This document shows, piece after piece, positions 6,450 to 58,895 of a DNA stretch of 64,000 nt. The DNA comes from Rugalucina vietnamica (Eukaryota > Mollusca > Bivalvia > Lucinida > Lucinidae): assembly GCA_964017185.1 (NCBI GenBank), contig OZ024875.1, positions 46,145,986 to 46,209,985 on the forward strand. Direction: 5' to 3'. The translations under genes and the position numbers were made by a program. Under the pieces are notes generated by a model. That model was given only the letters and a program-made list of their open reading frames with translations. It was not told the DNA's origin and ran no database searches. How positions within the stretch are numbered: the first letter of the stretch is position 1; the number at the start of each line of letters is the position of its first letter.

Positions 6450-7025
6450 AATTTATTTGGTGTGGCCTAAGACAACTGAAGAACGAGACTATTCCATACA
6501 AGAATGATCCTAAGGGCATTATATAGGCCAAGTACCTGGTATATTGTGAATCATGTATTTGTGATGCCCGAGTTCTTCATAAGGGGTTAGCAGGGGTCAA
6601 ATACTTGTCTTTGTCAGGAGACACTATACCCGTCGAGTGAATCTTGTAAAAGAAGGTTAAGGAGGACTGCTCCCTGCAGGCCTCCACGGTTGGCCAATCA
6701 AGCTTGTCAAGCATGTCATCAACGCTGCTTCTGTTCCTCCACCGCCTGCAGGTCCACCTGGCAGCTGTCCTCTGCACCTTCTCTACCTGGTCAATATCAG
6801 TATCATTATAGGAATGCCAAATAGGAGCCGCATACTCAAGCTGGGGCCTTACCAATGATTTGTATGCAACTTCTTTAGTATGACGAGGTGCCAAGACCAA
6901 ACTGCGTCGAAGAAAGCCCAATGTCTTAGTTGCTTTACATGAAATTTCAGAAACATGTTGACCCCATTCAAGATTATCTGCAATTGTTAAACCAAGGTAT
7001 TTGGCAGACTGAACTGTGATTCTTT
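6450..7025 (-). pseudogene. non-LTR retrotransposon fragment, reverse-transcriptase C-terminal region
   Basis: Minus frame reads SAKYLGLTIADNLEWGQHV, GFLRRSLVLAPRHTKEVAYK, LVRPQLEYAAPIW and VEKVQRTAARW, the standard block C-terminal to the catalytic domain in Jockey/CR1/L2-like LINEs. A TGA follows PANPL near 6577, but the frame continues with RTRASQIHDSQYTRY. The RT catalytic box and endonuclease are missing, so the copy is truncated at its 5' end, abutting a repeat-B copy at about 7020. Not functional. Confidence 0.75.
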
Positions 7026-8590: not shown

Positions 8591-10241
8591 AACAAGAGGA
8601 TCAATGGTCCTATAAACGCTCACCTGATATAAGGTCCTGATACAATTTGACCAATTTACATTGCATTAAAGACCCAGGACGTGGGGGGGGGGACAAACCC
8701 GAGGGCCAAACAGTTTTCGTAAACAAATTATCTTCGTAAACAAATTATCTGTCCATTTGCCCATTTCTAGCAAGTTCTGTCATTAAATGACATTTTCCCA
8801 CTTTTCCCCATTCAAATGCATAGGCGACCTTGTTGTAAAATAGGTAAAACAGTATGGTATATAAAAGGCAAGAAATTGGACAAAATTTGTTCAGCCAGCT
8901 TCATAGGTTATCTTGGTTCTTAATCTCTATCAAAACATATCTCTGCAGCATTGCAGGGTCATGTTTATATGTTCTCTGGACAGTTCCAAATTAACATAAG
9001 CATAGTATATACTAGAAGCTAAGTGTCTCTATGTTGAAGTTACAACTTGCTTTCAAAGTGTATGTGCGACTACTTTTAATATTTAAAACTTGCACATTTC
9101 ACTTTTTGTATACATTTGTTGTAACAAATAAAAAGGACTAAGCGTTACTGAAACAAAAATGCTTCAATTTGTTGAATTTGATGGGTATACGCTATAACAC
9201 ATGAAGATAGCATTATGCTAGCTTTAACTTTTTATCAGTTTTGTCCAATTTTGTGAGTTAGTATAAATGATCTTTCACTTGAAATGCTTTCATAAACATT
9301 TAACCAGCCTTGTCAGAAAAATGCTTGGCAATACAGACACAGTTAGAAAAATAATCACATTAAGTGGTTGTTTTTGAGCAAATTTTCTGAAATCGGACTT
9401 ATATTCCTCACTGAAAAGTGATTTATGTATTTTTATAGAGCTCCATGCCCTGATGTTTCATGCCAAGCTTCAAAATCACAGGCCTTCTGGTTCTGGAGAA
9501 GAAGATCTTTAAAAGATTTCTGTTATTTATAGCCATGGTGGCTATCTTGGCCATGTGACCTGAATCATTTATATAAACTTTCATCCCCTCTTCATACATG
9601 TATGGATGTTCCATGTGAAGTTTGGCTTTGATTGGCCAAGCGGTTTCAGAGAATAAGAATTTTGAATATCATGGTCATTTAATTGTATATAGCCCCAGAG
9701 CAGGGGCAGACAACCCACTGTGGCAAAATTGTTTTTCAAACTCATAGGCGACCTAAGTTGACCTTTCCATTAAATAGGTCAAGGTCATCCCAGCGTCATG
9801 ATTTATATCAATTTTGTAGAGCTCCATGCCCTGGTACTTCATGTCAAGTTTCAAAATCATAAGCCTTCAGGTTCTTGAGAAGAAGATTTTTTAAAGGTTT
9901 TTGCTATTAATAGCCATGGCTATCAAGTCTTGGTCTTGTGACCTGGATCATTTATATAAACTTTGTCCTCCCTTCCTAAGGATGATCCATATGAAGTTTG
10001 GCTTTGATTGTCCAAGCGGTTTCTGAGGAGAAGATGTTTTAATACTATGGTCATTATGTATATGCCCATTCCCACTGAAGCTGCATTTGAGGTTTGGCTT
10101 CAATATGTCAAGTGGTTTCAGAGAAGAAGATCTATGAAAATGGTGGACGGACGGACGCCGGACGGACGCCGGACGAACGCCGGACGGACGCCGAACCATT
10201 GTTATACTATAAGTTAGGAGCCCTTTGCTCAGGTGAGCTAA
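8591..10241 (+). mobile_element. Helitron-like non-autonomous element, copy 1
   Basis: Begins AACAAGAGGATCAATGGTCC and ends GAGCCCTTTGCTCAGGTGAG then CTAA followed by T, with a short hairpin (GAGC..GCTC at 10218-10230) upstream of CTAA. Internal segments repeat twice with wording such as TTCATGCCAAGCTTCAAAAT and GCTATCTTGGCCATGTGACC, and a short GGACGGACGCC tandem sits near 10143-10195. Both ends match the elements at about 29.4-30.6 and 57.95-58.90 kb in the opposite orientation. It sits in the intron of the decayed integrase-core gene. No coding capacity. Confidence 0.75.
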
Positions 10242-10721
10242 TAAAACCTTGAGAATGAGCAGAGCAGAACAGATAATTTATTACACTCAGATCAAAAAAT
10301 GGCATATGCGGGTTTGAAAACTTTGTACAGTGAAAATAATTTATGGTGTACCAGAAGTCTAAAAGATGTTTTTCAGGTATTGACAAACGACTGCCATTTT
10401 TATCGTCATAAAGTAACTTATCCAACATGAGTTTGTTTATATTTGTAGGTAATTGTTCAAATTAAAGTTAATATACTAGTGTCATTTATGATGTCAGAAG
10501 CATTATTACCAAGCTAACAGGAAACCAATTTAAGTATGAAACGAATTTTTTTAATACCCTTTAGATATCAGAAAGAAAAGTTAAGGAAAGCAATGATCAG
10601 GAATTGGTGCAATCAAAACCAATGTCCCGCCCTTCAACACAGGTGGGTACCAACCGAAATTACACTAATACAAAAAAGAAGAACATACATCAACAGATAG
10701 ACGACATGTAAACATTGTGGA

Positions 10722-13234: not shown

Positions 13235-14420
13235 TAAGTAAGTAATTACTTTATTTACCGAGGGTAACTCGGTTGGCTATGCCAAACTTCCCCGAGGCCC
13301 TCAAAGCATATATACAACACATTTTAGTCAAGACAATAAAACAATATCAGATTTACAAAATTAAATAAGTCACGTCATGAAAAGAAATCTGCTAAATGAA
13401 AATGAGATATTATGCTAGAAAGTCATTGAAGCAATGATAATAATGACACAGTCAGTGGCTTGCTTTTCATGTTAGCGAAACAGGTAATCTCATGTCGTGG
13501 CTCAATCATGTTATATTAGAAAATTACTAGATGAGCTAGTATGAAATTTACAAAGTGTGTGCAAAATATTGTAATGGCGATGGAGGTTGATATTTCAAGA
13601 CATACTGCCAGATTTCATCCATTGTAAGCAATTTTTAGAAAATGATTGAATGGTATCAGAATTCTTTATCCACAAGGGAATACTATTCCAAACCAGCGCA
13701 CCAGAATAAGACAGACTGTTTTTAAATAAATTAATTTTAGGTTAAGGTATGAGAAAATTTCTGTTAGAGGTTAATCTCAAATTTAACTGTGAGGAATTCA
13801 AATTCTGCATATCACCTCTCATCTGAAACAAATCTGTTAAGTAAATAGGGGCAGCATTCGTAGCTATTTTAAACATAACTTTTGCTTTGTTAAAAAATAT
13901 GCTTTCTTCAAAAGATAAGATATCCAACTGATTTCGTGCATCGACTAAAGTGGTGTAATCCTTCCCTAAAATAAGCTTGCAAGCCCTTCTTTGCATTTTT
14001 TCAATTTTATATGCATTTAAATTGCTAGAATTTCCCCATACTACACAACAATATTCAATATGAGGTTTTATAAATGCATTATAGTATAAACGTCTATGTT
14101 GTTCGTTGAGATATATTCGGATTTGTGATAGTAACCAAAGTTTCGACGCTATCTTTTTACATACATACTGAAAATGACTGTTCCAAACTAAATTCTGATC
14201 AACGTGAACTCCTAAGATTTTCTCGTTATTTGAATTTTTTAGCTCCCGATCGTTAAATGTGATGTTTATGTCACTTTCAATTAAGGAATTTCTCTTCTGT
14301 CTACTAGCAATCAACATTAATTTAGTTTTGTCAGTATTGATAGTCATACCATTCTCTAAGCACCAAATGTGGACGGAATTCAAAGCATTTTGGAGATTAG
14401 TTTCCAAGGAACACTAATAA
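13235..14420 (-). pseudogene. 5'-truncated CR1/Jockey-like LINE, nested in repeat A
   Basis: An open frame of 221 codons (13742-14407) reads WCLENGMTINTDKTKLMLIA, KILGVHVDQNLVW, LRRLYYNAFIKPHIEYCCVVW (split by few changes) and IEKMQRRACKLILG, the region just after the RT catalytic box. It starts immediately downstream of where that box should be. After an in-frame TAA it continues KINLFKNSLSYSGALVWNS to about 13600. A 3' UTR follows, ending in (AAGT)-type tail sequence at 13235-13245 (seen on the plus strand). Both flanks belong to one repeat-A copy. Dead on arrival by 5' truncation; the body is only lightly decayed, suggesting a fairly young insertion. Confidence 0.8.
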
Positions 14421-15950: not shown

Positions 15951-16489
15951 CTACAAAATTTTGCAAGGCTTTGATTTCCCATGTGATTGTGGAGGTCGTC
16001 TTCCAGGTGGGTAATCAACAAAGTCATAGTAGGTCGGGTCATCTTGCCAATTTTGGAACGTATCTTTAGGCTCTCTTCGTAATTGTGAGAAGTCGGGTGC
16101 ACGGGTTGCTGCTTCACGTGCCATCTCTGTGTGAGACGTCCAGGGAGGGTCATAAACTGGCTGCTTTCCTTCGTCATTTGTGGTACCTGTGGCAGTATCA
16201 GGCTCAGATTCTTCAGTCGTGAGAAATATGTCAACGAATCGTTTATTTTCTTGTTCGGTGACGGGTGCGTTTTCAAAGCCCTCTTTTACTTGCCTCTCAT
16301 ATTCCTTGTTTTTCTCATTTCCAATATTTTTCAAGTTTTCATTTAGAGCGTTCCTCTGTTTTGACAGGTCTTCTTTAATAGCATTCTTGAATGACGATGA
16401 ACTTTCTATATCGACCTCCTTTGATAATTGTCGAAGAAACGATTTGCCAATCACGTCACCGGAAGGTTTTGCTTGTTGCATTGTCGTAT
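15951..16489 (-). CDS. GBP-like exon 8: C-terminal helix, acidic tail and CaaX box
   Basis: Acceptor TCTTATTTTAG|AT restores phase 1 from exon 7. About 179 residues. The first half is charged and helix-prone (SFKNAIKEDLSKQRNALNEN and KNKEYERQVKEGFENAP), like the GBP C-terminal helices. The second half is acidic and proline-rich, likely disordered, longer than in vertebrate GBPs. It ends PPGRRPPQSHGKSKPCKIL and TAG: a CaaX box whose terminal leucine favours geranylgeranylation, behind scattered basic residues. This arrangement resembles prenylated vertebrate GBPs. Confidence 0.8.
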
Positions 16490-19400
16490 CTAAAATAAGA
16501 AGTCGTTACCTCAAATAATTAAAGAACTCCAATGGCCAAAATCGGTATCACAGTGCCTGTCTTACTGCGTAAAAGATTCCTTGACAGCAAATGGCATACA
16601 ATAGACAAAATGGCAATGTCATAATGATGCGATAATTAGTTTTGTTCTCACCGAAACCTATTTACTAGTGATATACGGTGGGCAATTTTATCAACATCAT
16701 TCATAACTTCAGATTTTAGAATCCATGATAAGATTAAAGCGGAACATGTTTAAATTGAAGATCATTAGACATCTTTGAAGTTTGTTTTTGATTGATTTTG
16801 TCAACTGCAAATGTGGCATATATCAATTTCCCTTTTTTTTGTTGACTACGAACAAAATGATACCTTTCTGTGCCTCTTGGACCATGAGAAATACATTATG
16901 TTCTTCCTCTTCTTTTCCATCCAGGTACGACTGCAAAACTTGGCGTTTCTTAAAGAAGAAAACGAACTTTTAAGGGTTAAAATAATTTAAAATAGCCTCG
17001 TTGTTGAATTAAAACAGCGTACGCTTCAGCGCCACTTGTTTACCAGGCGCTATGAACACTCACTAGATCTACTCTCAAACGTTGCAAAATCAACACATTT
17101 TATGATTAGCCAAAACGAGTGTGAAATCACCGTTCGGAACAACGGAAAAAAGAAGTCCCTTGTTGACCCAATTCATCTTTTGTACCTAGATGAACAAAAC
17201 AATATGGCCATATTGTTTGTTTGTTTGATTGAAATGGTCTTCTCCAGTAATTTTATATGACTGATCGTTCCAAGGCGATACTTCGGTATCGTAAACTGCG
17301 AAAGACATTGTCTAAATTTTTGATTAATCATGGAATTTATCATGATTTATTTGTTTGTCCATGATGATTCATTGACAAGTTAGAGATTCAACATGAGGAC
17401 TAAACAACTAACTAAATGTTGTGAACCACTGCAGTAGCTGAGTGTGAGGTAAGGTACATTGTACCCGATCGTTTTAAGCCCGCCAGTGATTTTATATTAC
17501 TGATCGTTCGAAGGCGATACTTCTGTGGTGGTTCTTATTAGCTCGACTGCACGAAGTGCATAGAGCTATTGGAGTCACCCCGGTCGTCCACGTTCCCGTT
17601 CCCGTTCCCGTGCGCGTCACACTTGCGTTAAAGTTTTCTAGAAGTCCATATCTTGACAACCACTCATCAGAAAGCATTCATACTTGGACCATAGATACCC
17701 TGTAGGGTTAGCTTTCATTCCATGGCATCAGGCCCCTGGGTCCAGGCCAGGGGGTGGGGCTAGAGGTTAAAATCTAGAACACCTTCAAAAATGGCAATTC
17801 TTATGTTAAAGTTTTCTAGAAGTCCATATCTTGACAACCACTCATCAGAAAGCATTGATACTTAGGCCATTGACACCCTGTAGGGTCGGCTTTCATTCCA
17901 TGGCATCTGATCACTGGGTCCATGCTAGGGGGTGGGGCTAGAGGTTAAAATCTAGAACCCCATTAATAATAATGGCTTTTCTGTGATATAGTATTCTAGA
18001 AGTCTATATCTTGAAAACTTTTTATCAGAGAGCTTTCATACTCGGACCATAGGTACCCTGTAGGGTTGAGTTTCATTCCATGGCGCATCGGGCCCCTGGG
18101 TCCATGCCTGTGGGGTGGGGCTGGAGGTTAAAAACTAGAACACTAAAAATAGATGTACTGTTGTGTAACTTTTACAAGGAGGCATATCTTGACAACTTAT
18201 CATAAAGCATTCATACTTCATACACTTTAGGTTCCATGACATCGGACCTCTGGGTCGGAGTCAGAGGGGCGGGGCTAGAGGTCAAAATCTAGAACTCCCC
18301 GTTTTGTTTTTTTTTCTTTTTATTTCTTAATAGAAACAAGTTAGGAGGATGGTTGGTCATTCATCTTTTGACTTTGTGACACTAACTTGTGTGTCATGAC
18401 GGTAAGGGTCGGTTGACCTACTTTCCATGGTTCAGTGATTTTGCCTTATATCTTGACACTCAATCAGTATATTTTCTTACTTCTTTCAGATTATGAGTTA
18501 GTACGACCAGGCCTTTGACCCCAATATACTTATAGGTCACTGTGACCTAATTTCACGGTTCAGTGATTTTGCCTTATATCTTGACACTCAATTAGTATAT
18601 TTTCATATTTTTTTCAGATTATGAGTGAGTATGACCAGACCTTTGACCCCAATATACTTATAGGTCACTGTGACCTAATTTCACGGTTCAGTGATTTTGC
18701 CTTATATCTCGGTACTCAAATGGTTTATGAACAAACTTCTTTCAAAGTATGTTTGCGTATGACAAGACCTTTGACCCTGAAGTAGTCCTAGGTCACTGTG
18801 ACCTAATTTCACGGTTCAGTGATTTTGCCTTATATCTTGACACTTGATTAGTATATTTTCATACTTTTTTCAGATTATGAGTGAGTATGACCAGACCTTT
18901 GACCCCAATATACTTACAGGTCACTGTGACCTAATTTCACGGTTCAGTGATTTTTGCCTTATATCTCGGTACTCAAATGGTTTATAAACAAACTTCTTTC
19001 AAAGTATGTTTGCGTATGACAAGACCTTTGACCCTGAAGTAGTCCTAGGTCACTGTGACCTAATTTCACGGTTCAGTGATTTTGCCTTATATCTTGACAC
19101 TCAATTAGTATATTTTCATACTTTTTTCAGATTATGAGTGAGTATGACCAGACCTTTGACCCTAATATACTTATAGGTCACTGTGACCTTATTTCACGGT
19201 TCAGTGACTCTGCCTTATATCTCGGCACTCAAGTGGTTTATGTTTATGATCAAACTTCTTTCACACTATGTTTGTGTATGACAAGACCTTTGACCCTAAA
19301 GTAGTCCTAGGTCAATATGACCTAATTTCACGGTTCAGTGATTTTCCTTTATATCTCGGCACTCAATTGGTATATGAACATACTTCTTTCACGATATGTA

Positions 19401-22400
19401 TGAGTATGACAAGACCTTTGACCGTAAAGTATTCCTGGGTCACTGTGACCTAATTTCATGGTTCAGTGATTTTGCCTTATATCTCGATACTCAGTTGGTA
19501 TTTTTTCATACTTCTTTCTGATTATGAATGAGTATGACCGCACCTTTAACCCAAACATACTTATAGGTCACTATGACCTAATTTCATGGTTCAGTGATTT
19601 TGCTTTATATCTAAACACTGAATGGGTATATGATCATTTTTCTTTCACATTATGAGTAAGTATCACAAGACCTTTGACCCTGCAATACTTATAGGTCAGT
19701 GTGACCTTTATTCACGGGTCAGTGATTTTGTGTCTTGGCACTCAGTTGGTATATGAACACACTTCTTTCACAATATGAGTGAGACCTTTAAATCTTAGGT
19801 AGTTATAGTTAACTTTCATGGTTCAGTGATTTTGCCTTATTGCATCAAGGCAAAAAGATGTATGAGCATAATGCTTTGGGTTACTGGTCGGGTTTGGCCT
19901 TATGTTTGACAAAGGTCAGAAGGTCAGAAGCAGTCGAGCACGCTGTCCTGCGACAGCTCTTATTTTTTATATATTGGTGCTTGAATTTTTGTGCTGTTGT
20001 TATCATATTTTAGTTAAGTTTGAGTAACTGGGTGGCCGCCTATTGTGAAAATAGCTGCTCATTCGGCACACGATATGTCTTCATGGTATAAGTGGTTCTA
20101 TTTGTTTCATGTTTTGGAGTGGAAATGTTTGTGCTGTTGGAATCTTATGTACGTTTTCATAGTTTTAGCTAAGTTCGGGTAACTGAGTGACAGCCTATTG
20201 GGGAATAGCTGTTCACTCGGCTTACGCTATGTTTTCTAAGTAATTTTACTTCCTATAGGCGGTTTGCCTTTATTTCGTCAGGGTGAATATTTGTCACCAA
20301 CATGACAGGCATATGTACCAGCCGGGTTTCGAACCCGCAACTTCTTGATTGCTAAGCAAATACGCTGTCCATTACACCACCGCGGCTGTATAAGTACTCA
20401 TTGTCAATAGAATTTTTCCCACCTCTGTTTGGGAGCAGAAATTTTTTTCTGATTGTTCGTTTTCCTGATCAGTGCCTACTTGTACCTTTTAATGAAGTAC
20501 AAAACGTTAGCGTAATCTCTTTTAGAATTTTATAGTTCGATCTATTGATACCTTCATCACTGCAAGTCATTTATAAAAAGTTTTCTGATTTATAAGACTT
20601 AGTATACTGCTGTTCTCACTGCTTTAGTTATTATTACCTTTGGGCCTAATCCCACTGTTTTCTTGTACTGTTTTATGATCCACTCAATATCTCTGATATA
20701 TTCATCATATCCAGAAACATGTTGGTAGGCTTTGTTGTCGATCTTAGTTTTGATTCGTCGTTCGTCTAAATAGCGCACCCTACCCCAACACATTCTCTCG
20801 GAATCTTTCGTGATTGACTTCAATAGTCTGTCCAAAACTTGTTCAAATGCTTCCTGTGAGTAAAAAGGACACGCTTGACTGAACGTCAAAACATTGTAGC
20901 AAGATATCTCGGATCCAAAATAACCAACATGTTTGTTGGATCCGAGGAGAGCATAAGGCACATGAATTGATACAATTTAAATCAATATACAAACTCATAC
21001 ATCAGGCGGGAAAGAAAGAAAGTACTAAACACAACACTACAAAACGTTGCACAGGAAAAGCAAAGCTCTTTCACAATAATGTACAAGTAGGCAACGATCA
21101 GGAAAAAGGCGCAATCAGAAAGAAATTCTCACTTCGAAAACCGAGGTGGGAAAAACAAATTGACGATTAGGTTCTTATACTTATAGAATATATCGTAAGC
21201 CGAGTGAGCAACTATTTCCCAATAGGCGGTCACTCAGTTACCCGAACTTAAATAAAACTATGAAAACGCACATAAGGTTTAAACAACACAAAAATTCGAC
21301 TCCAAAACATAAAACAAATAGAACCACAACGGAAGTACTACCTTGGAATGATCAGTAATATAAAACTACTAGGGGCTTAAACCAGTTTTACAGGGCCCTA
21401 ACCTCGCCCTCAACTTCTGCAATGGTTCAGTTATACACAAATATAAACAAGAAATAAGATAAATCGTGTTAAGAAAACATATCACATAAGTATCCACATG
21501 TAACATGCATAACGGAAAGCAGGGTGAGCAGCTGTTGAAGTGAGGTGGTCACCGTTATCTGGCTAGCATCAACCAAATACAAAGGTGGCCAGTATAACAG
21601 AGAGACATACGGGATAAACATGATTGAATAATAGCTTTAGAAACACATGTTCATCCCCATTTAGTATATGTACAGTATATATTGTGTAATTTTGTATTTT
21701 TAACCTTATGATAATTTGACAAACAGTATCAATGGTTGAATCTTCTCCTGGATTCGTGATTTATTCAATAGCATGGCACAAATTATGATTGGTTCCCATA
21801 ATGTCTTCGCTATCATTGGATTTAATAAAATAAAGCAAGCAGTATACTGTAGCTTGACCTACAAGTATTACACGACCTTCGACGGTTCCTGGGTAAAAAA
21901 GCACCAAAATACCATAATAGCATCCAGAAACACTCATCAAATTACAGCGTCCCTGATTTTGGTCATGATTTAGTGGTGGTTACACACGTAATTGATTTTG
22001 GGTCACTTTTTGGAGGACTCCTGTAAAGTTTAGACGTACATTTATTCCTATCAGGTATTAATTACAGAAACCAGTGATGTTGTTTTTTGTGTTTGAATGC
22101 TAAATAGCTTATTGGACTTTGAAAAACAGTTGGTGGTCCAAAATATTTTTGGTCGAGTTTGGAGTTTGTCTTTTTAATAGCGTTATGTTATGATACACTG
22201 TATAGTGTCCAGTGTTCACACAGCATAAAATAACTAACACATACCATAGCAGACCCAGTAAAAAGCTCAACATCGTCATAAATGATGACTTTTCTCAGAT
22301 ATTCTATAGCTTTATCCGTACTCTGTACATGGAACTGAGCTATCGTCTCTGTGTCTGGCAGAACGTCACCCATGAGGCGTTGCATTTCTGCTTTATATAC

Positions 22401-24486
22401 GTTTTGAGCTGCCAGAACCAAATTTTGATTTTCATAGTCTATCATTTCTTTTACCGCCGTGTGCATGCAAGGTGGTTTTCTGTCTTGTATAAACCTGACG
22501 TAGCTTCTCACTAGACTACCAAACACTGCAATAAAGAACCATTTTTATTTAAAAACGTTAAGATATAAGGTCAAATACAAAATTCAAAGGTGAGACAATT
22601 ACAATGTGATCCCCATTGACCACTCTACCCACATTTATATCAGCATTGTAAAAATGTTTTGATTTTTCTAAGAAACATCGTTAGGAAACGCAAACTAAGC
22701 ATAAAGAAATATACTTAGCTCAGCTGAACCGAAGGTTTACAGATGAGCTTATAGTATACCCCATGCTCCAAGAGATAGATTGGCACGATATCCAGTGGGC
22801 ACATGGCGTCAGAATGACGTCGTCGCATCGACGTCGATCTGACGTCATTCTAATGTCATGTTCCTGCTGGGTAGTATTTGCACTTACTTCTGCCATTTAG
22901 CGTCTTTCCAGAAGTCATCCGTTTTGGCTTACATTTGTAGATATGTTCTGTGAAAGCTTTTACGTCATTTTCAAACTCCATATTCTTCGCCAATATTCCT
23001 TTGTCTAACTCGTTCGGAGATCGTGGAGGAGCAAACTTGAAGCATTTTCTGTTTTTGAAATACCTCCGAACGAGCTGTCTTGGCAGGTTGTATTCTCGAA
23101 TGGAATCGGAACTTCCACGCTTGAGAACCAATGCAGTTTCAAGATATTGATCTGGGGAAATTGGTTTGTTGGTGTCATCTACAAGCTTAACATTGATGTC
23201 TCGAATCACCATTATGAAGGACGGAAAAAACACATCGAAGTAAGAATCGTCTTCTGCGTCAGATTCCAATATGCTAAGTGAGGATTTTATTTCTTTCAGA
23301 AACGTTTGATCGTTAAGGAATATAGTCAATGAAACGATGCTTATCTTGTGTTGTAAAGCTTTCAACGTTCTTGTTTCGTATGATAATAAACTGTAAAAGT
23401 TTAGAAGATGTGGGTTGCAACAGGGGCGGAAAGGGGCGAAAAAAACTGCAAGATAAATATAGTTATGGATAAAATGTAAGCCTGGTCGTCGTTCGTGTTT
23501 CGCCAATGAGAAAGGCCATCTATATTTCTTGATTATTGGATTGTTTATTTGTGTCGTTGCGTTGTTTAATGGTAACATGCTTATGCATACTACAGGAATT
23601 CCTTTCATAAAATCACGAGAATTGTAATCACCTTTTTTATCAATTATAATCAATTATTATAATCACATTTAATAAATTGCAATAAATAAACACATGTAAG
23701 GATTTGAACGGTACTAAATGTCTGAAAAGGATATGTAAGCTTTTGGATTGCATCGGCGTCCAGAACAGCTTTGTGATTGTAAACCAGAGTACTTGCTAGG
23801 AGTGAAGCCAACAGAAAGTGCCAGCGATCCCTGAAGTATTAGATACGTAAATGTATTTAGAACAGCCAAATTTAAGAGCCTGGTGCACCTTTTGTATTAT
23901 TACAAGGAAACACATAACTATAGATTTAACGCTCAGTGCTTGAATGGGTTATATACATTCCAAGGGACAAAATGAAGAGTGCATAGATACTAGTAGCTCT
24001 CTAATGTCTGTACATATGCTGAAAGTGTGTTTTGTTATTGTTATTATTATTATTATTATTTTTATTATTATTAGTGATGTTCGGTGAACGCGAATCTAAA
24101 AAATCCAATCCAATCCAAACTAATCCATCCAATCCAATGTCAGATCTACGATTTTAGCCAAAAAGTATATTATTTTTGGTTAAATTGTGGCTTTCTAGGA
24201 ACGGTTTTCTAGATCCGCCGGCTTAGTATCTATTTATGAAAAAGGCAAAATCACATTGACACTATATATTCTCACTGACGACGTGTGCATTCATAAATCT
24301 CTGTAGTCTGTTGGGTATCGCGTTGAACTTCTGTACAAGCGACCCGAGTTCGAATCCCGCCAGTATATTTTTTCTTTATTGCCTTAGTTTCTTTTTTATG
24401 TCTTTTTTTTTAATATTTACTTATGCCTATATTGTTTATAGAGTTTGAACCCCATCCGCATATTCTGTGATGTACTTTTAATTCAT

Positions 24487-27600: not shown

Positions 27601-30600
27601 TTTACTGGTTGTCAGCACAACACACTCAAATTTAACAAATACGGGCCCAAATCGTATCGGATTGGATTGGATTTTTTAGATTCGCGTTCACCGAACATCA
27701 CTTTTAAGTAACAGAACGTAATGATTTTGATTTTGTCACATAATTATATTGCACCAACAATTGAATGAGTGAATGGCATTGAACTAAATTTGATAAATTT
27801 AAACTTCACATTTAAACGATGAGGTCTTATTCGGCAAATAGGTTACTGTATGGGCGGCACCTAATGAAAAGCTACAAGTAGGCAAAGATCAGGAAAAGGC
27901 GCAATCAGAAAGAGATTCCCACTCCAAAAACCGAGGTGGGAAAAAAAACAAACTAACAATCAGGCACTTATACCATGAAACATATCATAAGCCGAATGAG
28001 CAGCTATTTTCCCAATAGGTGGCCACTCAGTTACCTTAACTTAATAAAAAAAAATATGAAAACATACATAAGGCGCCAACAGCACAAACATTTTTTTTTT
28101 AAACACCAAGACATAAAACAAAAAAAGAACCACCACAGAATACTTCATTAGACCTGTATTACTTTTGACGTAGGTAAAAGCTAAATGTAAAACGTTAAAG
28201 ATTCAACTCACACGTTTTCCATTAGAAAATAAGTATGAAATAAGAACTTGCCTAATTCACTGGATTGGACAGCATACATGTAGCTGATTTCTAACTGACT
28301 GAGCTCGCATTCTCTATAATCTCCCCACTTGAACAGATGGATTAGCCGACCACGCCCAGATATGAATATTAAAGTTGCCGACTATACAGTAAAGTATTTG
28401 CCAAATAATACGTCGAAATCGGCTCCAAATAACAACAAAGGAAGGCACAATAGAAATATTCTTCCAAATGAGTCGGTTGTGATAAAATAAAACTACCTCT
28501 TGTACGGCACCAAGTCCCTCCGTATCTAGCAAAACGAGAACCTGGGACTCCTGGGTTGGATGTTGCAAACACATTATCCATACACCCATTGTCTTCGCAT
28601 TTGATGTATGACCAATGCCAAACGCTGCAAAATAATTGACAAACTGATACAATTTACATGCAACACAATTATTTGTCGTAAACCGATCATCATCTGCCGT
28701 TAAAGATTATTATATATGAAAATATAAACATTTATTCTTTTTCGCTGTCATAACATTATGAAGATAATCTGCGATAATCAGTTGTAAGAGGATACCACAG
28801 ATATGATGGTAAGGATTTAAGGTAAGACATGTAGCTTGTAGGATGGTCATGCACCGGCGTCCGTCCGTCGTCCGTCAACAATTTCAAGAAACCGCTTGGC
28901 CAATCAAAGCCAAACTTCATTTGGAGCATCCTTAGGAAGGTGGAACGAAAGTTTGTATAAAAGGTTCAGATCACATGACCAAGATGGCCGCCATGGCTAT
29001 AAATAGCAAAAAAAAAACCTCTGCGTCGTCAAATTTTGATTGTCTATGTCCCATAAAAAGGACATCGGACTTATACGAGTTAAAGTGTAGCAATTACTGT
29101 TTGGTCATTCCCCTCCTTGTTTCTCTATAAGGCGTAAAATAAAAATAATCTTGTTTCCACTAACATGCCGAAGACGGGGAAGAGTCGGTAGATCGGGAAA
29201 TCTTTTTATTTTCGTGTATTTTTTTCTTTCTTGAAAATGGGTAAAAAAGGTAGAAACGCGCTAAAACTAATCATAAGTACTCGAAACAAACATGCGATGC
29301 AGTTTAAAACCAATAGGGAGCTTAAGAAAGTGAGTTGAACTAATATTGTTGAAATTATAGCAGTTTAGCTCACCTGAGCCGAAGGCTCACAAGGTGGGCT
29401 TATAGGATGGTCATGCTCCGGCGTCCGGCGTCTTCCGTCCACAATTTCAAAGATCTCTAAAACCGAGCGGCCACTCAAAGCCAATTTTATATGAAGCTAC
29501 TATAGGATGGGGGAAACAATGTGTATAAAAATAATCCAGGTCACATGACCAAGATGGCCGCCATGCCCATATATGGTAAAAAACCTTCAAAAATCTTCTT
29601 TTCCGGAACTGGTTGGCCGATTTCAACGAAACTTGGCATGACGCATGATTCTGAAAAAAGGTCCCCAGGAGCTAATAGCCCCCACCCCGGGGCAGTATAT
29701 ATTGTTGCAATTATAGCAGTTAAGCTCACCTGAGCCGAAGGCTCACAAGGTGGGCTTATAGGATCGTCATGCTCCGGCGTCCGGCGTCTTCCGTCTACAA
29801 TTTCAAAGATCTCTAAAACCGCTCGTTCCACTCAAAGCCAATTTTTATATTAAGCTACTATAGGATGGGGGAACCAATGTGTATGAAAAATAATCCAGGT
29901 CACATGACCAAGATGGCCGCCATGCCCATATATGGTAAAAACCCTTCAAAAATCTTCTTTTCCGGAACTGGTTGGCCGATTTCAACGAAACTTGGCATGA
30001 CGCATGATTCTGAAAAAAGGTCCCCAGGAGCGCATATGCCCCCACCCAGGGGCAGTATACATGTAAAACCACCTGGCCAATCAAAGCCAAATTTTATGTG
30101 AAGCATCTATAGGATAGTGTTACTAATGTGTATATAAATAATCCAGGTCACGTGACCAAGATGGCCGCCATGCCCAAATATGGTAAAAACCCTTCAAATA
30201 TCTTCTCCGGAAACGGTGGACCGATTTCAAAGAAACTTGGCATGAGGCATCAATGGCTAAAGTACTACAATGTATATATAAATCATGAACCTGTGGTGAC
30301 CTTGACCTATTTTACGACAATGTCAACATAGGTCGCCTATGCCTTTGAACGGATAAAACTGTTAAAATGTCATTTGAAGGGAAAGACTTGCAGGAAATTG
30401 GCAAATGTACAGGATATTGTTTATTATGAAGAAAAAATGGCCCCAGGGCTTCATCTGTCCGTTTACTGGGGCTATTTTCCATAATATTCAAACATGTTTA
30501 TTGGTATATACAACATATCTCAGGTGAGCGTTTACAGGACCATTGGTCCTCTGGTTAATCATTGTCTGCTTACCACTTAAAATGTTGTGGGTCGTCGGCA

Positions 30601-44559: not shown

Positions 44560-47500
44560 AATTACTCTTAGCAGCAATTTCTCCTCAGTGAAAAACGGTC
44601 AACGTAGTAGCAAATTTGCTGCAGCGATAAACGGTCCAAGATAGCAGCAATTTTGCTGCAGCGAAAAAACGGTGAAGCTAGCAGTAAATTTTCTGCAGCG
44701 AAAAACGGTCAAGTTTGCAGCAATTTTGCTGCAGCAAAAACGGTCATGGTAGCAGCAAACGTGCATGTTAACAACAAGTCTGCTACAACAGGCAAGTTAG
44801 CGGTAAATTTGCTGCAGCGAAAAACGGTCGTTAGCAGCATTTTCTGCTGCAGCTATAAACGGTCTAGCTAGCAGCAATTTTGCTGCAGCGAAAAACGGTC
44901 AAGTTATGCACAAGTCACTTGGGGCCGGGGAATATCTTTAGTTTTAAAGCCCCGCTAAAAGCCCGGCATTGCGGGGTCAGATTTGTGGCACAATCCCTGC
45001 TAAAAGCTGCGGCTCTCCGGAGGCTGACAATAATATGGAACAACAGCTGGTTTTGTTCTAATAAAACATAAATGTACATGAGAAACAGGCTTGAATTTCT
45101 ACATGTAAATGTACAGGTACATTTGCAAATTAAATAAGGACCAAAAATGTTTAAAATAAAACGTTAGAAAATACAACTAGCATCTAATTTGAATTAATGT
45201 GATCTTATAATACACATGTATATGGAAATTAAAACCTCGGCACATCCCCAGCAATGCCGGGACTCAAAGGTTAAACCCCGGTACATTAGCCCCGCTGCCT
45301 TCCCACTATCCCCCGCCCTAAAGAAGCCGTGGATACAAATGAGTGGTGCATTAGCAGCAAAGTCGCAGCAGTGAAAAGCGGTCAGGTTGGCAGAAAATTT
45401 CGCTGCAGCGAAAAAACGGTCAAGCAACAGTTTTGTAGCAGCAATTTTGTAGCATCAATTTTGCAAGTTGGCAGCAATTTTGCTGCAGCGACAAACGGTC
45501 AAGTAAGCAGCAAATTTACTGCAGCGAAAAACGTTAAATTACATGTAGCAGCAAGTTGCGGCAGCGAAAATTTTTGTCGAAGATTTTGTTTCGTTTTAGC
45601 CTGGCTGTAAGCGCCATAGAAAACGATGATGAATGCCGCAAGCAGAATTTTGCTATCCAACCCAGGGCCCAACGTCAACTTATTGTTCGTTCGCAGTTTG
45701 ATCTGGCTGTAAGCCCTATATAAACGATGATGAATGTTGTAAACATAATTTTAACCTGTGAGCCGAGTTATGGACCGAAGTTCCTTGCCAGCATTAAGAG
45801 TGAAAATAAAACTGACGACATTTTGTTTACGTTTTATTCTGGCTGTGTGCGTTATAGAAATCAATTATGAATGCCGCCAACATTACTTTTCGATCCTATG
45901 GCCCTAGTTATTGACAAACATTTTCTGCCGGTAGTAAGAGTGAAATTTTTGTTTTCGTTTTAATCTGACTGTGAGCGCTAGAAAAAACGTTGATGAATGC
46001 CGCAAACATTTTTTTTTTCTAATGTGCTCACAGCTGCAGCAAACTTGCTGCTAACTTGACCGTTTTTCTTCGATGCAGCAAAATTACTGCTAACATAGCA
46101 GTTTTTCGCAGCACCAAAATCGCTGTTCACAGCCTGACTTAAACGAAAACAACCGGAGACAAATTCGCTGCGGCAAAATTGATACTGACTTTACCGCTTT
46201 TCCCTGGAGCAGGTTTGCTGCTTAATTAACCCTTTTTCGATGCATCAAAATTTAGCCACACTAAAACAAGACCGCTTTTCACTGCAGCAAAATTGCTGCT
46301 AACATGACACTTTTTCGCTGCGGCAAAATTACTGCTAACATGACCGCTTTTCGCTGCAGCAAAATTGCTGTTCACATTCAGAGTGAAATGAAAACAATCG
46401 GAAACAAATATTTGCTGGGGCAACATCGCTGCTTACTCGACAGTTTTTCGCTGCAGCAGATTTGCAGCTAACTTGGCCATTTTTGCTGCATTAATTTGTT
46501 TGCTAACATGACCGTGTTTCGCTTCAGCAAAATTACTGCTAACATGACCGCTTTTCATCGCAGCAAAATTGTTGTTCACAGCCAGACTGAAACGAAAACA
46601 ATCGGAGACAAAAAATGCTGAGGCAACATTGCAGCTGGCATGACCATTTTTTCGCTGCAGCAGGTTTGCTGCTAATTTTTTGACCGTTTTTGCTGCATCA
46701 AAATTGCTGCTAACATATAAATGACCATTTTTGCCATCAAACCTGCAGCTTACATGACCGGTTTCCGCTGCTGGAAAATTGCTGTTACATGTAACACGGA
46801 AGTTTTTCGTTCCATCAGAAAACATTGTTTGAGGCGTTCGTCAATGATTTCTATAGCCACACTCACAGCCACACTATAACTAAACAATTTGTCGACAAAA
46901 TCTTTTAGTACTTTTCACTTTTACTGCTGGTTTGGGAACTTTGGTCTATTACTTGGGTCATAGGCGGGATGAAAAGTTCTGTTTGCAACATACATCATCA
47001 TTTTCTATAGCGCTCACAGCCAGACAGAAACAAAAATAACCGTAAACAAAATTTTCTTCAGCAAAACTGCTGCTACATGTTAAAGTACCATTTTTCGCTG
47101 AGGCAAAATTGCTGCTAACTTGATCATGTATCGCTGCAGTAAAATTTCTGCTAACATGACCGCTTTTCACTGCATCAAAATTGCTATGCACAGCTGTACT
47201 GAAACGAAAACAATCAAAAAAAATATGCCGAGGCAACATTGCAGCTGCTAACTTGACCTTTTTCGCTGCAGCAGGTTTGCTTCTAACATGACTATGTTTG
47301 CTGCATCAAAACTGCTGCTTACATGATCGTTTTTCGCTGCAGCAAAATTGCTGCTAACCTAACATTTTTGGCTGCATCAAAATTGCAGCTAGCATGACTG
47401 TTTTTCGCTGCAGCAAAATTGCTGCCACCTTGACCGTTTACCGCTGAAGCAAATTTACTGCTAACATGACTTTTTTCACTTTTACTACTAGCAGGGCATT

Positions 47501-57866: not shown

Positions 57867-57953
57867 TACCTATTTATTCTTCACCCACTTCCATGGATAC
57901 ATGTACACTGTACATTTGTAACTCGAAATTAGAAATTACCGATTTAGATTTTA

Positions 57954-58895
57954 TTAGCTCACCTGAGCCGAAGGCTCACAGGTGTACTTATAGTATACCC
58001 ATACCCCCCTTGGGAAGGGGGAAAGAAAGTTTATATAAATGGTCAATGTCACATGACCAAGATCGCCGCCATGGCTATAAATGGAAAAAAAAAACTTTAA
58101 AAATCTTCTTCTTCAGAACCAGAAGGCCAATGATTTTGAAACTTGGTGTGAAGCATCAGTGGCTGGAGCTCTACAAAGTTTATATAAATCGTGACCCTGA
58201 CCTATTTTACGGCAAGGTCAACATAGGTTGCTCATGCATTTGAATGGGGAAAAGTGTTAAAATGTCATTTGTAGGGAAAAACTTGCAGGAAATGGGCAAA
58301 TGGACTTCAGATTGATGATTCTGAAAAAATTGGACCCCAGGGATATGTGAGCCCCCACCCCGGGGCAATATACATGTATATTACAGTGATATTCAAAGAT
58401 CTTCTTCTCTGAAACTGCTTGGCCAATCAAAGCCAAACTTTATGAGGAGCATTGTTAGGAAGTGGGAATGAAAGTGTATATAAATGGTCATGGTCACATG
58501 ACCAAGATGGCTGTCATGGCTATAAATAGCAAAAACCTTTAAAGAACCAGAAGGCCTATGATTTTGAAACTTGGCATGAAGCATCAGGCAATGGAGCTCT
58601 ACAAAGTTTATATAAATCGTGACCCTTTGATGACCTTGACCTATTTTACGGCAGGGTCGCCCATGCATTTGAATGGGGAAAATTGTTAAAATGTCATTTG
58701 AAGGGCAAAACTTGCAGTAAATTGGCAAATGGACTGCAGTTTTATGTTTTCAAAAAGAAATTGACTCCAGGGGTTGCTCTGACCAAGCCCTGGGGTTATA
58801 TACATGGATATTACCATTCTAGTCAAACAAGTTTATTAGTATATATCTCAGGTTTCATGTGAGCGTTTCAGTTCAGGACCATTGGTCCTCTGGTT
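57954..58895 (-). mobile_element. Helitron-like non-autonomous element, copy 3
   Basis: Left end TTAGCTCACCTGAGCCGAAG with hairpin GAGCC-GAA-GGCTC; read on the minus strand this is hairpin, then CTAA, then T. Right end GGACCATTGGTCCTCTGGTT. Two internal modules with CACATGACCAAGAT and GAAGCATCAGTGGCTGGAG. About 940 bp, the shortest of the three near-complete copies. Confidence 0.78.

Follow-up and report, generated by a model that had tools for sequence, protein, structure and literature searches.

How did ten palindromes that match the consensus estrogen response element come to lie in a row in a bivalve genome, and are they receptor sites? The window analyzed here, 64,000 nucleotides of contig OZ024875.1 from Rugalucina vietnamica, was reported in a preliminary description to contain nine perfect AGGTCAnnnTGACCT sites, at 18534, 18662, 18790, 18918, 19047, 19175, 19309, 19565, and 19693, and a near-perfect one at 19437. 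A search allowing up to 2 mismatches recovered all nine, and the site at 19437 proved to have 1 mismatch. The spacers were also as described: CTG in 7/10 sites (19437 included), with ATA, CTA, and GTG in the others. The same search returned a 2-mismatch match at 30294, unrelated to the array. None of 100 shuffles of the whole window reached 11 AGGTCAnnnTGACCT matches (shuffle mean, 1.71).

The identification of the motif as the core of the consensus estrogen response element, an inverted repeat with 3-nt spacing (IR3), was correct, as both half-sites and spacing are identical to the consensus. We take GGTCACTGTGACC to be the reverse complement of the vitellogenin A2-type estrogen response element core. 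Judged by titles and the opening of abstracts, 13 of the 14 papers found to contain this string concern estrogen or estrogen-related receptors. The further claim that a mollusc estrogen receptor (ER) binds the motif agrees with a gel shift, described in the part of the source available, in which one mollusc ER DNA-binding domain bound GGTCAnnnTGACC (PMC3778743). The motif studied here, a candidate site, differs from the consensus element in its setting, a tandem repeat of a transposon. Literature searches that combined the estrogen response element with transposable elements and molluscs, or Helitrons with nuclear-receptor binding sites and bivalves, found nothing; two papers combined satellite DNA and tandem repeats with the estrogen response element, but their titles point to other subjects.

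The array is not free-standing. It is the second of two central arrays in an element of ~2.4 kb with HINE-like anatomy, whose parts are as follows.

17536..19968, + strand: HINE-like non-autonomous Helentron of approximate extent; its outer ends were estimated from the subTIRs, the 3' hairpin, and the T-rich edges
17540..17550, + strand: 5' subTIR AGCTCGACTGC, with 10/11 bases the reverse complement of 19930-19939
17558..17567, + strand: internal inverted repeat GCATAGAGCT, which in part complements the 5' subTIR
17592..17609, + strand: left-module microsatellite (GTTCCC)3
17627..18143, + strand: first central tandem array, 2.9 copies of a 178-bp unit (TRF)
18406..19783, + strand: second central tandem array of 128-bp units, each with one palindrome; TRF counts 10.7 copies, starting at 18414
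18511..19679, - strand: DR1-like motif, [AG]CCTTTGACC as read on the + strand, in 9/11 units
18534..19707, + strand: the ten AGGTCAnnnTGACCT sites, nine perfect plus 19437 (motif search, up to 2 mismatches)
19913..19926, + strand: direct repeat AGGTCA-GA-AGGTCA (DR2), immediately 5' of the 3' subTIR
19930..19939, + strand: 3' subTIR GCAGTCGAGC, from its match to the 5' subTIR
19942..19957, + strand: 3' palindrome GCTGTC-CTGC-GACAGC (GCTGTCCTGCGACAGC), then T-rich sequence

The order of parts is thus 5' subTIR, inverted repeat, microsatellite, 178-bp array, 128-bp array, 3' subTIR, and 3' hairpin. AGCTCGACTGC and GCAGTCGAGC match perfectly over 10 bp and differ at the eleventh base, which makes the pair slightly short against a norm of ~11 to 15 bp and places it inside the one-mismatch range of the Cg_HINE account (PMC7492417, as far as available). 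An inverted repeat and a left microsatellite lie beside the 5' subTIR, a palindrome soon follows the 3' subTIR, the center holds satDNA-like tandem arrays (178-bp and 128-bp), and the edges are T-rich. Folding of 17536-17580 gave -7.8 kcal/mol (z, -2.99). By eye, an additional diverged copy extends the 178-bp array to about 18299. Two observations count against HINE identity: the window holds no second copy of the element at E 0.01, and the fold energy of 19926-19970, which spans the 3' hairpin, is unremarkable against shuffles (z, -0.78).

Known elements share this plan. In Cg_HINE of Crassostrea gigas (Vojvoda Zeljko et al. 2020), the 5' subTIR is usually 11 to 12 bp, often with one mismatch; the element shares with ours a 5' subTIR with a nearby complementary inverted repeat, a left microsatellite, a 3' subTIR, and a 3' palindrome, and its satDNA-like arrays are likewise central and in some elements number two, as here (PMC7492417). 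Cg_HINE was the nearest counterpart among the literature matches listed (20 of 396), and the comparison with it concerned structural plan. Each 128-bp unit here contains an IR3 dyad, whereas the portion of the Cg_HINE account at hand mentions no receptor site (PMC7492417). DINE-1/HINE Helentrons (Thomas et al. 2014), as partly available, likewise have subTIRs, a 3' stem-loop, and central repeats, and their preference for T-rich insertion sites (PMC4067079) would fit the T-rich edges here. The preliminary description recognized neither that the array forms the central repeat of a HINE-like transposon nor that amplification of one unit produced its sites.

The history of the units bears directly on how the ten sites should be counted. 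Because the AGGTCAnnnTGACCT sites occur one per unit of the ~128-bp tandem array, they are not ten independent events; the units share ancestry, and five arose by recent dimer amplification. TRF places the array at 18414-19783, and an eleventh unit at its left edge, u0 (18406-18533), has a broken left half-site. Units u1 to u5 alternate A-B-A-B-A, forming a 256-bp dimer: u1, u3, and u5 are 97 to 98% identical, u2 and u4 98%, and A versus B 78 to 82%. Five of the ten palindrome units of the array are products of this recent amplification. Between u1 and u2, 0/48 sites differ in the first block and 25/80 in the remainder (Fisher P = 1.6e-6), a mosaic of the pattern expected from exchange or conversion. 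The 48-bp block is conserved in its entirety, palindrome included, and so are the 33 columns 3' of the palindrome, with 0.055 mismatches per cell in u1 to u10. The edge unit u10, only 60 to 64% identical to u1 to u9, still has a perfect palindrome. All sites derive from one palindrome. The chance level of the palindrome must accordingly be judged on a single ancestral unit: the exact IR3 occurred in 1 of 100,000 simulated units, and some perfect 6-3-6 inverted repeat in 4,414 of 100,000.

A single origin leaves the question of whether the half-sites were subsequently kept. If the palindromes were functional sites for an ER-type receptor or another AGGTCA binder, selected on the element or its host, the HINE would be a portable receptor-responsive array, and the half-sites should outlast their surroundings. 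With u0 excluded, parsimony counts 1 change across their 12 columns, against 0.72 per column elsewhere (random-column P = 0.0038; 2/128 circular shifts equally good). Units u6 to u10 alone gave P = 0.0083, with 4/128 shifts equally good, and the comparison with all columns ranged from P = 0.002 to 0.011 depending on the units kept. In u6 to u10, the spacer departs from CTG in 4/15 cells and the half-sites changed in 1/60 (Fisher P = 0.005); such spacer drift beside steady half-sites is what a receptor site under constraint would be expected to show. Set against the 48-bp block, however, the half-sites stand out weakly: P was 0.041 for all units, 0.058 once u0 was dropped, and 0.20 once u0 and u10 were both dropped. 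With one unit per clade and u0 and u10 left out, 5/128 windows were equally good; the excess vanished with u0 as placed by MAFFT (19/128), and units u0 and u6 to u10 in MAFFT placement gave 32/128. In addition, u0 lacks the left half-site, and the motif was picked out because it is perfect. Thus, the preliminary claim that units decayed while the palindrome stayed perfect stands insofar as half-sites changed less, but five of the ten units are recent and the whole 48-bp block is conserved. These figures come from the alignment that it proposed, run within the array. The constraint signal is there but weak, and it hinges on the alignment of the edge unit and the choice of control columns.

Other receptor-like motifs and a precedent in worms also speak for receptor function. 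The DR1-like motif and the DR2 lie in the same element. The 11-bp core of the former has 0.045 mismatches per cell (u1 to u10), but DR1 shows no excess conservation: it had 7 to 8 parsimony changes in 12 half-site columns, with 58 to 92 of 128 shifts equally good depending on the units kept, and we rejected it as a second constrained site. IR3 and DR1 combined gave 4 to 14 of 128, by units kept, a result driven by IR3. None of 12 papers containing a DR1 string dealt with such repeats, by title. AGGTCA was also rejected as an over-represented 6-mer of the whole window: it ranked 8/2080 when a dinucleotide model was used but 753 with an order-4 model. Masking the element changed these ranks to 57 (42 seen, 23.5 expected) and 1142, respectively. 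In Caenorhabditis, eight copies of one Helitron type contain more than 100 heat-shock elements (Garrigues et al. 2019, PMC6927752, available in part). Those Helitrons resemble our element in being rolling-circle transposons with many copies of a transcription factor site; there, HSF-1 binding was established by ChIP-seq (PMC6927752), whereas here the evidence is the DNA sequence and the candidate factor is a nuclear receptor. The main text of a follow-up on other factors at C. elegans transposable elements, as available, contains neither "NHR" nor "nuclear hormone receptor" (PMC8896005). Overall, we consider it unlikely that the palindromes are selected receptor sites, and the sponge or enhancer role raised in the preliminary description drew no support from these analyses.

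The dyad could instead have been kept as a DNA structure, a small hairpin that would promote recombination or replication slippage and hence array growth. Folding of the 15-mer gives a stem of 6 bp (-3.9 kcal/mol; z, -2.29), with 7-bp arms where the spacer is CTG, and a published discussion, seen in part, holds that direct, inverted, or palindromic motifs can aid tandemization (PMC11136912). Yet the seventh pair is lost in 3/3 changed spacers (ATA, CTA, and GTG), and the minimum-energy fold of the 128-nt unit lacks the hairpin (z, -1.51), a weak test in that the folded stretch started two bases inside the palindrome. This role seems very improbable.

Similar dyads occur elsewhere in the window. 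Further HINE-like 5' ends, which favor the HINE reading, lie at 29368, 29724, 57957, and 10227 (- strand), the last adjoining a CGGACGGACGC microsatellite. One of two 143-bp units at 1548-1763 contains TGACCTTGAGGTCAAGGTCA, and the other has it with one change. A family at 9600-10250 (- strand), 29355-30400, and 57945-58750 contains TGACCTTGACCT or TGACCCTGACCT; at 2/3 loci an opposite half-site lies nearby. AGGTCA dyads thus occur in three HINE or HINE-like families of the window, the IR3 of the 128-bp array included. We nonetheless doubt that HINEs in this lineage carry nuclear-receptor sites as a recurrent feature. Patterns of palindrome plus flank had 0 matches in viral_contigs and 0 in genome_contigs. 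A 3'-end pattern matched 7 viral contigs, which we take as chance because none (0/7) had the HINE hairpin or IR3.

The preliminary description placed the array in an intron of a defense-type gene. Outside the element, we identified one putative exon of the neighboring gene.

20638..20853, - strand: putative coding exon, acceptor CTCACAG, donor GTAATA (by eye)

The ORF holding it had no Pfam match and, in PDB, only alpha-crystallin at E values of at least 0.18; the ORF at 15951-16505 (- strand), the candidate next exon, matched nothing in Pfam or PDB. An intron location is plausible yet unproven, because the acceptor-like site of the latter ORF, read by eye, is out of phase with the donor at 20637. 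The element lies near, and perhaps within an intron of, a guanylate-binding-protein-like (GBP-like) gene.

We favor, with a probability of about 0.75, the reading that the array belongs to a HINE as its satellite-like central repeat, that the palindromes are copies of one ancestral unit, and that the element is passive near the GBP-like gene. One ancestral 128-bp unit may by chance have held a perfect IR3 palindrome along with a DR1-like motif; copies of it would then have arisen through unequal exchange or by rolling-circle amplification, most recently as the 256-bp dimer. The palindromes would be alike largely because of shared ancestry and homogenization of the 48-bp block, and the HINE-like element would sit passively near the gene. 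The element anatomy and unit history on which this reading builds are observed; how the units were amplified, the ability of naked sites to bind an ER-type receptor, and the inertness of the sites in the cell are inferences. Half-site conservation without u0, spacer drift in u6 to u10, and the perfect palindrome of the diverged u10 count against it.

These results turn a puzzling array into a recognizable kind of transposon. If its sites are bound, they would give rolling-circle transposons a concrete means of dispersing receptor-responsive DNA, and in a mollusc host, dispersed HINE arrays would be obvious places to search. If HINEs recurrently carry receptor sites, they could seed receptor-responsive enhancers or sinks genome-wide, comparable to the heat-shock elements of worm Helitrons.

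A pattern search of the window recovered all nine perfect copies of AGGTCAnnnTGACCT that had been reported in the preliminary description, each at its reported start, as well as one with a single mismatch at 19437. Eleven matches with two or fewer mismatches were present; among 100 dinucleotide-shuffled versions of the window, 0 had that many. A tandem array with a period of 128 bp carries one palindrome (IR3, two 6-bp half-sites separated by a 3-nt spacer) in each unit; eight of the ten steps from unit to unit measure 128 bp, and the remaining two 129 and 134 bp. The palindromes are descendants of a single ancestral site by copying. Among 100000 simulated units of like composition, the exact IR3 was present in 1 and any perfect 6-3-6 inverted repeat in 4414; chance origin of the exact word is unlikely, and a dyad of some sort is not very rare.

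The array belongs to a set of features spanning about 17536-19968.

Features of the element
17540: 5' subTIR, AGCTCGACTGC
17558: IR partly complementary to the 5' subTIR, GCATAGAGCT
17592: microsatellite (GTTCCC)3
17627-18143: second array, upstream of the 128-bp array, period 178 bp
18414-19783: 128-bp tandem array, 10.7 copies (TRF)
19930: 3' subTIR, GCAGTCGAGC
19942-19957: 3' palindrome GCTGTC-CTGC-GACAGC, then T-rich sequence

According to the available text of two papers (PMC7492417; PMC4067079), HINEs consist of a 5' subTIR, a complementary IR, a microsatellite, tandem repeats, a 3' subTIR, and a palindrome, and some have two tandem arrays. The order of parts here is identical to that of these published HINEs, and the region therefore looks like one non-autonomous Helentron (HINE), with inferred outer limits. 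Its 5' and 3' subTIRs share a 10-bp match. The left end has a fold z of -2.99; the right hairpin forms with unremarkable energy (z -0.78). A similarity search found no further copy of the element within the window. The left flank (17244-17540) repeats a stretch slightly further left, with CCAGT[AG]ATTTTATAT at both 17244 and 17483; another repeat may thus have been the insertion target of the HINE.

The preliminary description placed the array in an intron.

Candidate gene features, all on the minus strand
20638-20853: putative exon, acceptor and GTAATA donor (by eye), donor facing the element
22856-23653: guanylate-binding protein (GBP) N-terminal domain piece, Pfam PF02263, E 8.1e-16
28314-28706: GBP N-terminal domain piece, Pfam PF02263, E 4.8e-8

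The ORF containing the putative exon had no Pfam match; no next exon was found, and an intronic position is therefore only plausible. Elsewhere in the window, an integrase core domain piece (Pfam PF24764; 11673-12065, minus strand) is probably a transposon remnant, and clusters of ~36-bp repeats on GCAGCAATTTTGCTGC-type palindromes form more than one array at 44568-47477. The minus-strand ORFs 6577-7023 and 13742-14413 had no Pfam match; by eye, we take them to resemble retrotransposon reverse-transcriptase tails.

We aligned eleven units of the 128-bp array (u0 to u10, with u0 and u10 at the edges). Identity was 97-98% among u1, u3, and u5 and 98% between u2 and u4, versus 78-82% between these two types, which suggests that the latest growth was by a 256-bp dimer. 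Differences between types largely spared the first, 48-bp block of the unit, which includes the palindrome: u1 and u2 differed at 0 of 48 sites there and 25 of 80 in the remainder (Fisher p 1.6e-6), u3 and u4 at 1 of 49 and 27 of 80, and u5 and u4 at 1 of 49 and 23 of 80. Exchange or conversion would be expected to leave a mosaic of this kind. Because the palindrome lies inside the homogenized block, its identity across u1-u5 says little about selection.

A possible signal of constraint on the half-sites, an explanation that the preliminary description had weighed against a young array, appeared as an excess of conservation over all columns but was weak relative to the 48-bp block. In u1-u10, departures from consensus occurred in 1 of 120 half-site cells and 154 of 1160 others, and 1 of 128 windows was as good. 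By parsimony with u0 left out, the 12 half-site columns together needed 1 change, against 0.72 per column in the rest of the unit; 2 of 128 circular shifts did equally well, and comparison with random columns gave p 0.0038. The corresponding values were 4 of 128 and p 0.0083 for u6-u10 only, and 5 of 128 and p 0.011 without u0 and u10. Within u6-u10, the spacer was unlike CTG in 4 of 15 cells, versus 1 of 60 changed half-site cells (Fisher p 0.005). When columns of the 48-bp block served as the control, p was 0.041 for all units (u0 re-registered by hand, its missing base not scored as a change), 0.058 when u0 was left out, and 0.20 when u10 was dropped as well. With u0 in its MAFFT placement, one base off at the palindrome, 8 of 132 half-site cells differed, and equally good values were seen in 19 of 128 windows; its left half-site is damaged under either alignment. 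A DR1-like motif in 9 of 11 units showed no excess conservation by parsimony across the array units. The half-site signal, for a motif picked on account of its perfection, is suggestive and confounded.

HINE-like 5' ends with GCTCACCTGAGC were found at 29368, 29724, and 57957, and at 10227 on the minus strand.

Second HINE-like family, with GCTCACCTGAGC 5' ends
9600-10250, minus strand
29355-30400
57945-58750

The bodies of these three loci are about 72-79% similar to one another over stretches of at least 250 bp and contain 15 RGGTCA half-sites within 2503 bp, including pairs of the TGACC[CT]TGACCT type. The 10.2-kb copy diverges beyond the 12 bases of GCTCACCTGAGC, a CGGACGGACGC microsatellite lies in the 10.1-kb copy, and the 29-kb copy has a tandem repeat of its first ~350 bp (95% identity). 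Region 1400-2000 contains two 143-bp units (1548 onward). A TGACCTTGAGGTCAAGGTCA dyad lies at 1579, and a copy of it with one change lies at 1722. The hairpin GCTGTC...GACAG that follows at 1836-1850 resembles the 3' end of the element; 1548-1850 is possibly a third HINE remnant. Of 104 RGGTCA half-sites in the window, 33 are in the element and 20 in the four other regions (the three loci and 1400-2000), but since region 1400-2000 was chosen for its half-sites and copies inside one family are not independent, the occurrence of receptor-type half-sites across several HINE-like families is a lead rather than a test.

The preliminary description's statement that a mollusc ER binds such a site agrees with the available text of PMC3778743, in which the DNA-binding domain bound GGTCAnnnTGACC in EMSA in the absence of ligand; mollusc ERR apparently did not bind, in data not shown by that paper. 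By analogy, the naked palindromes could therefore be bound by an ER-type receptor. Passive carriage of the palindromes is the default reading, with occupancy, enhancer activity, and titration as hypothetical alternatives. Among the literature matches listed, we found no report of receptor-like sites in HINEs. In Caenorhabditis, heat-shock elements carried by Helitrons are bound by HSF-1, according to the available text of PMC6927752, which shows that such dispersal can matter. The element looks like a HINE with an unusual content of putative receptor-like sites.
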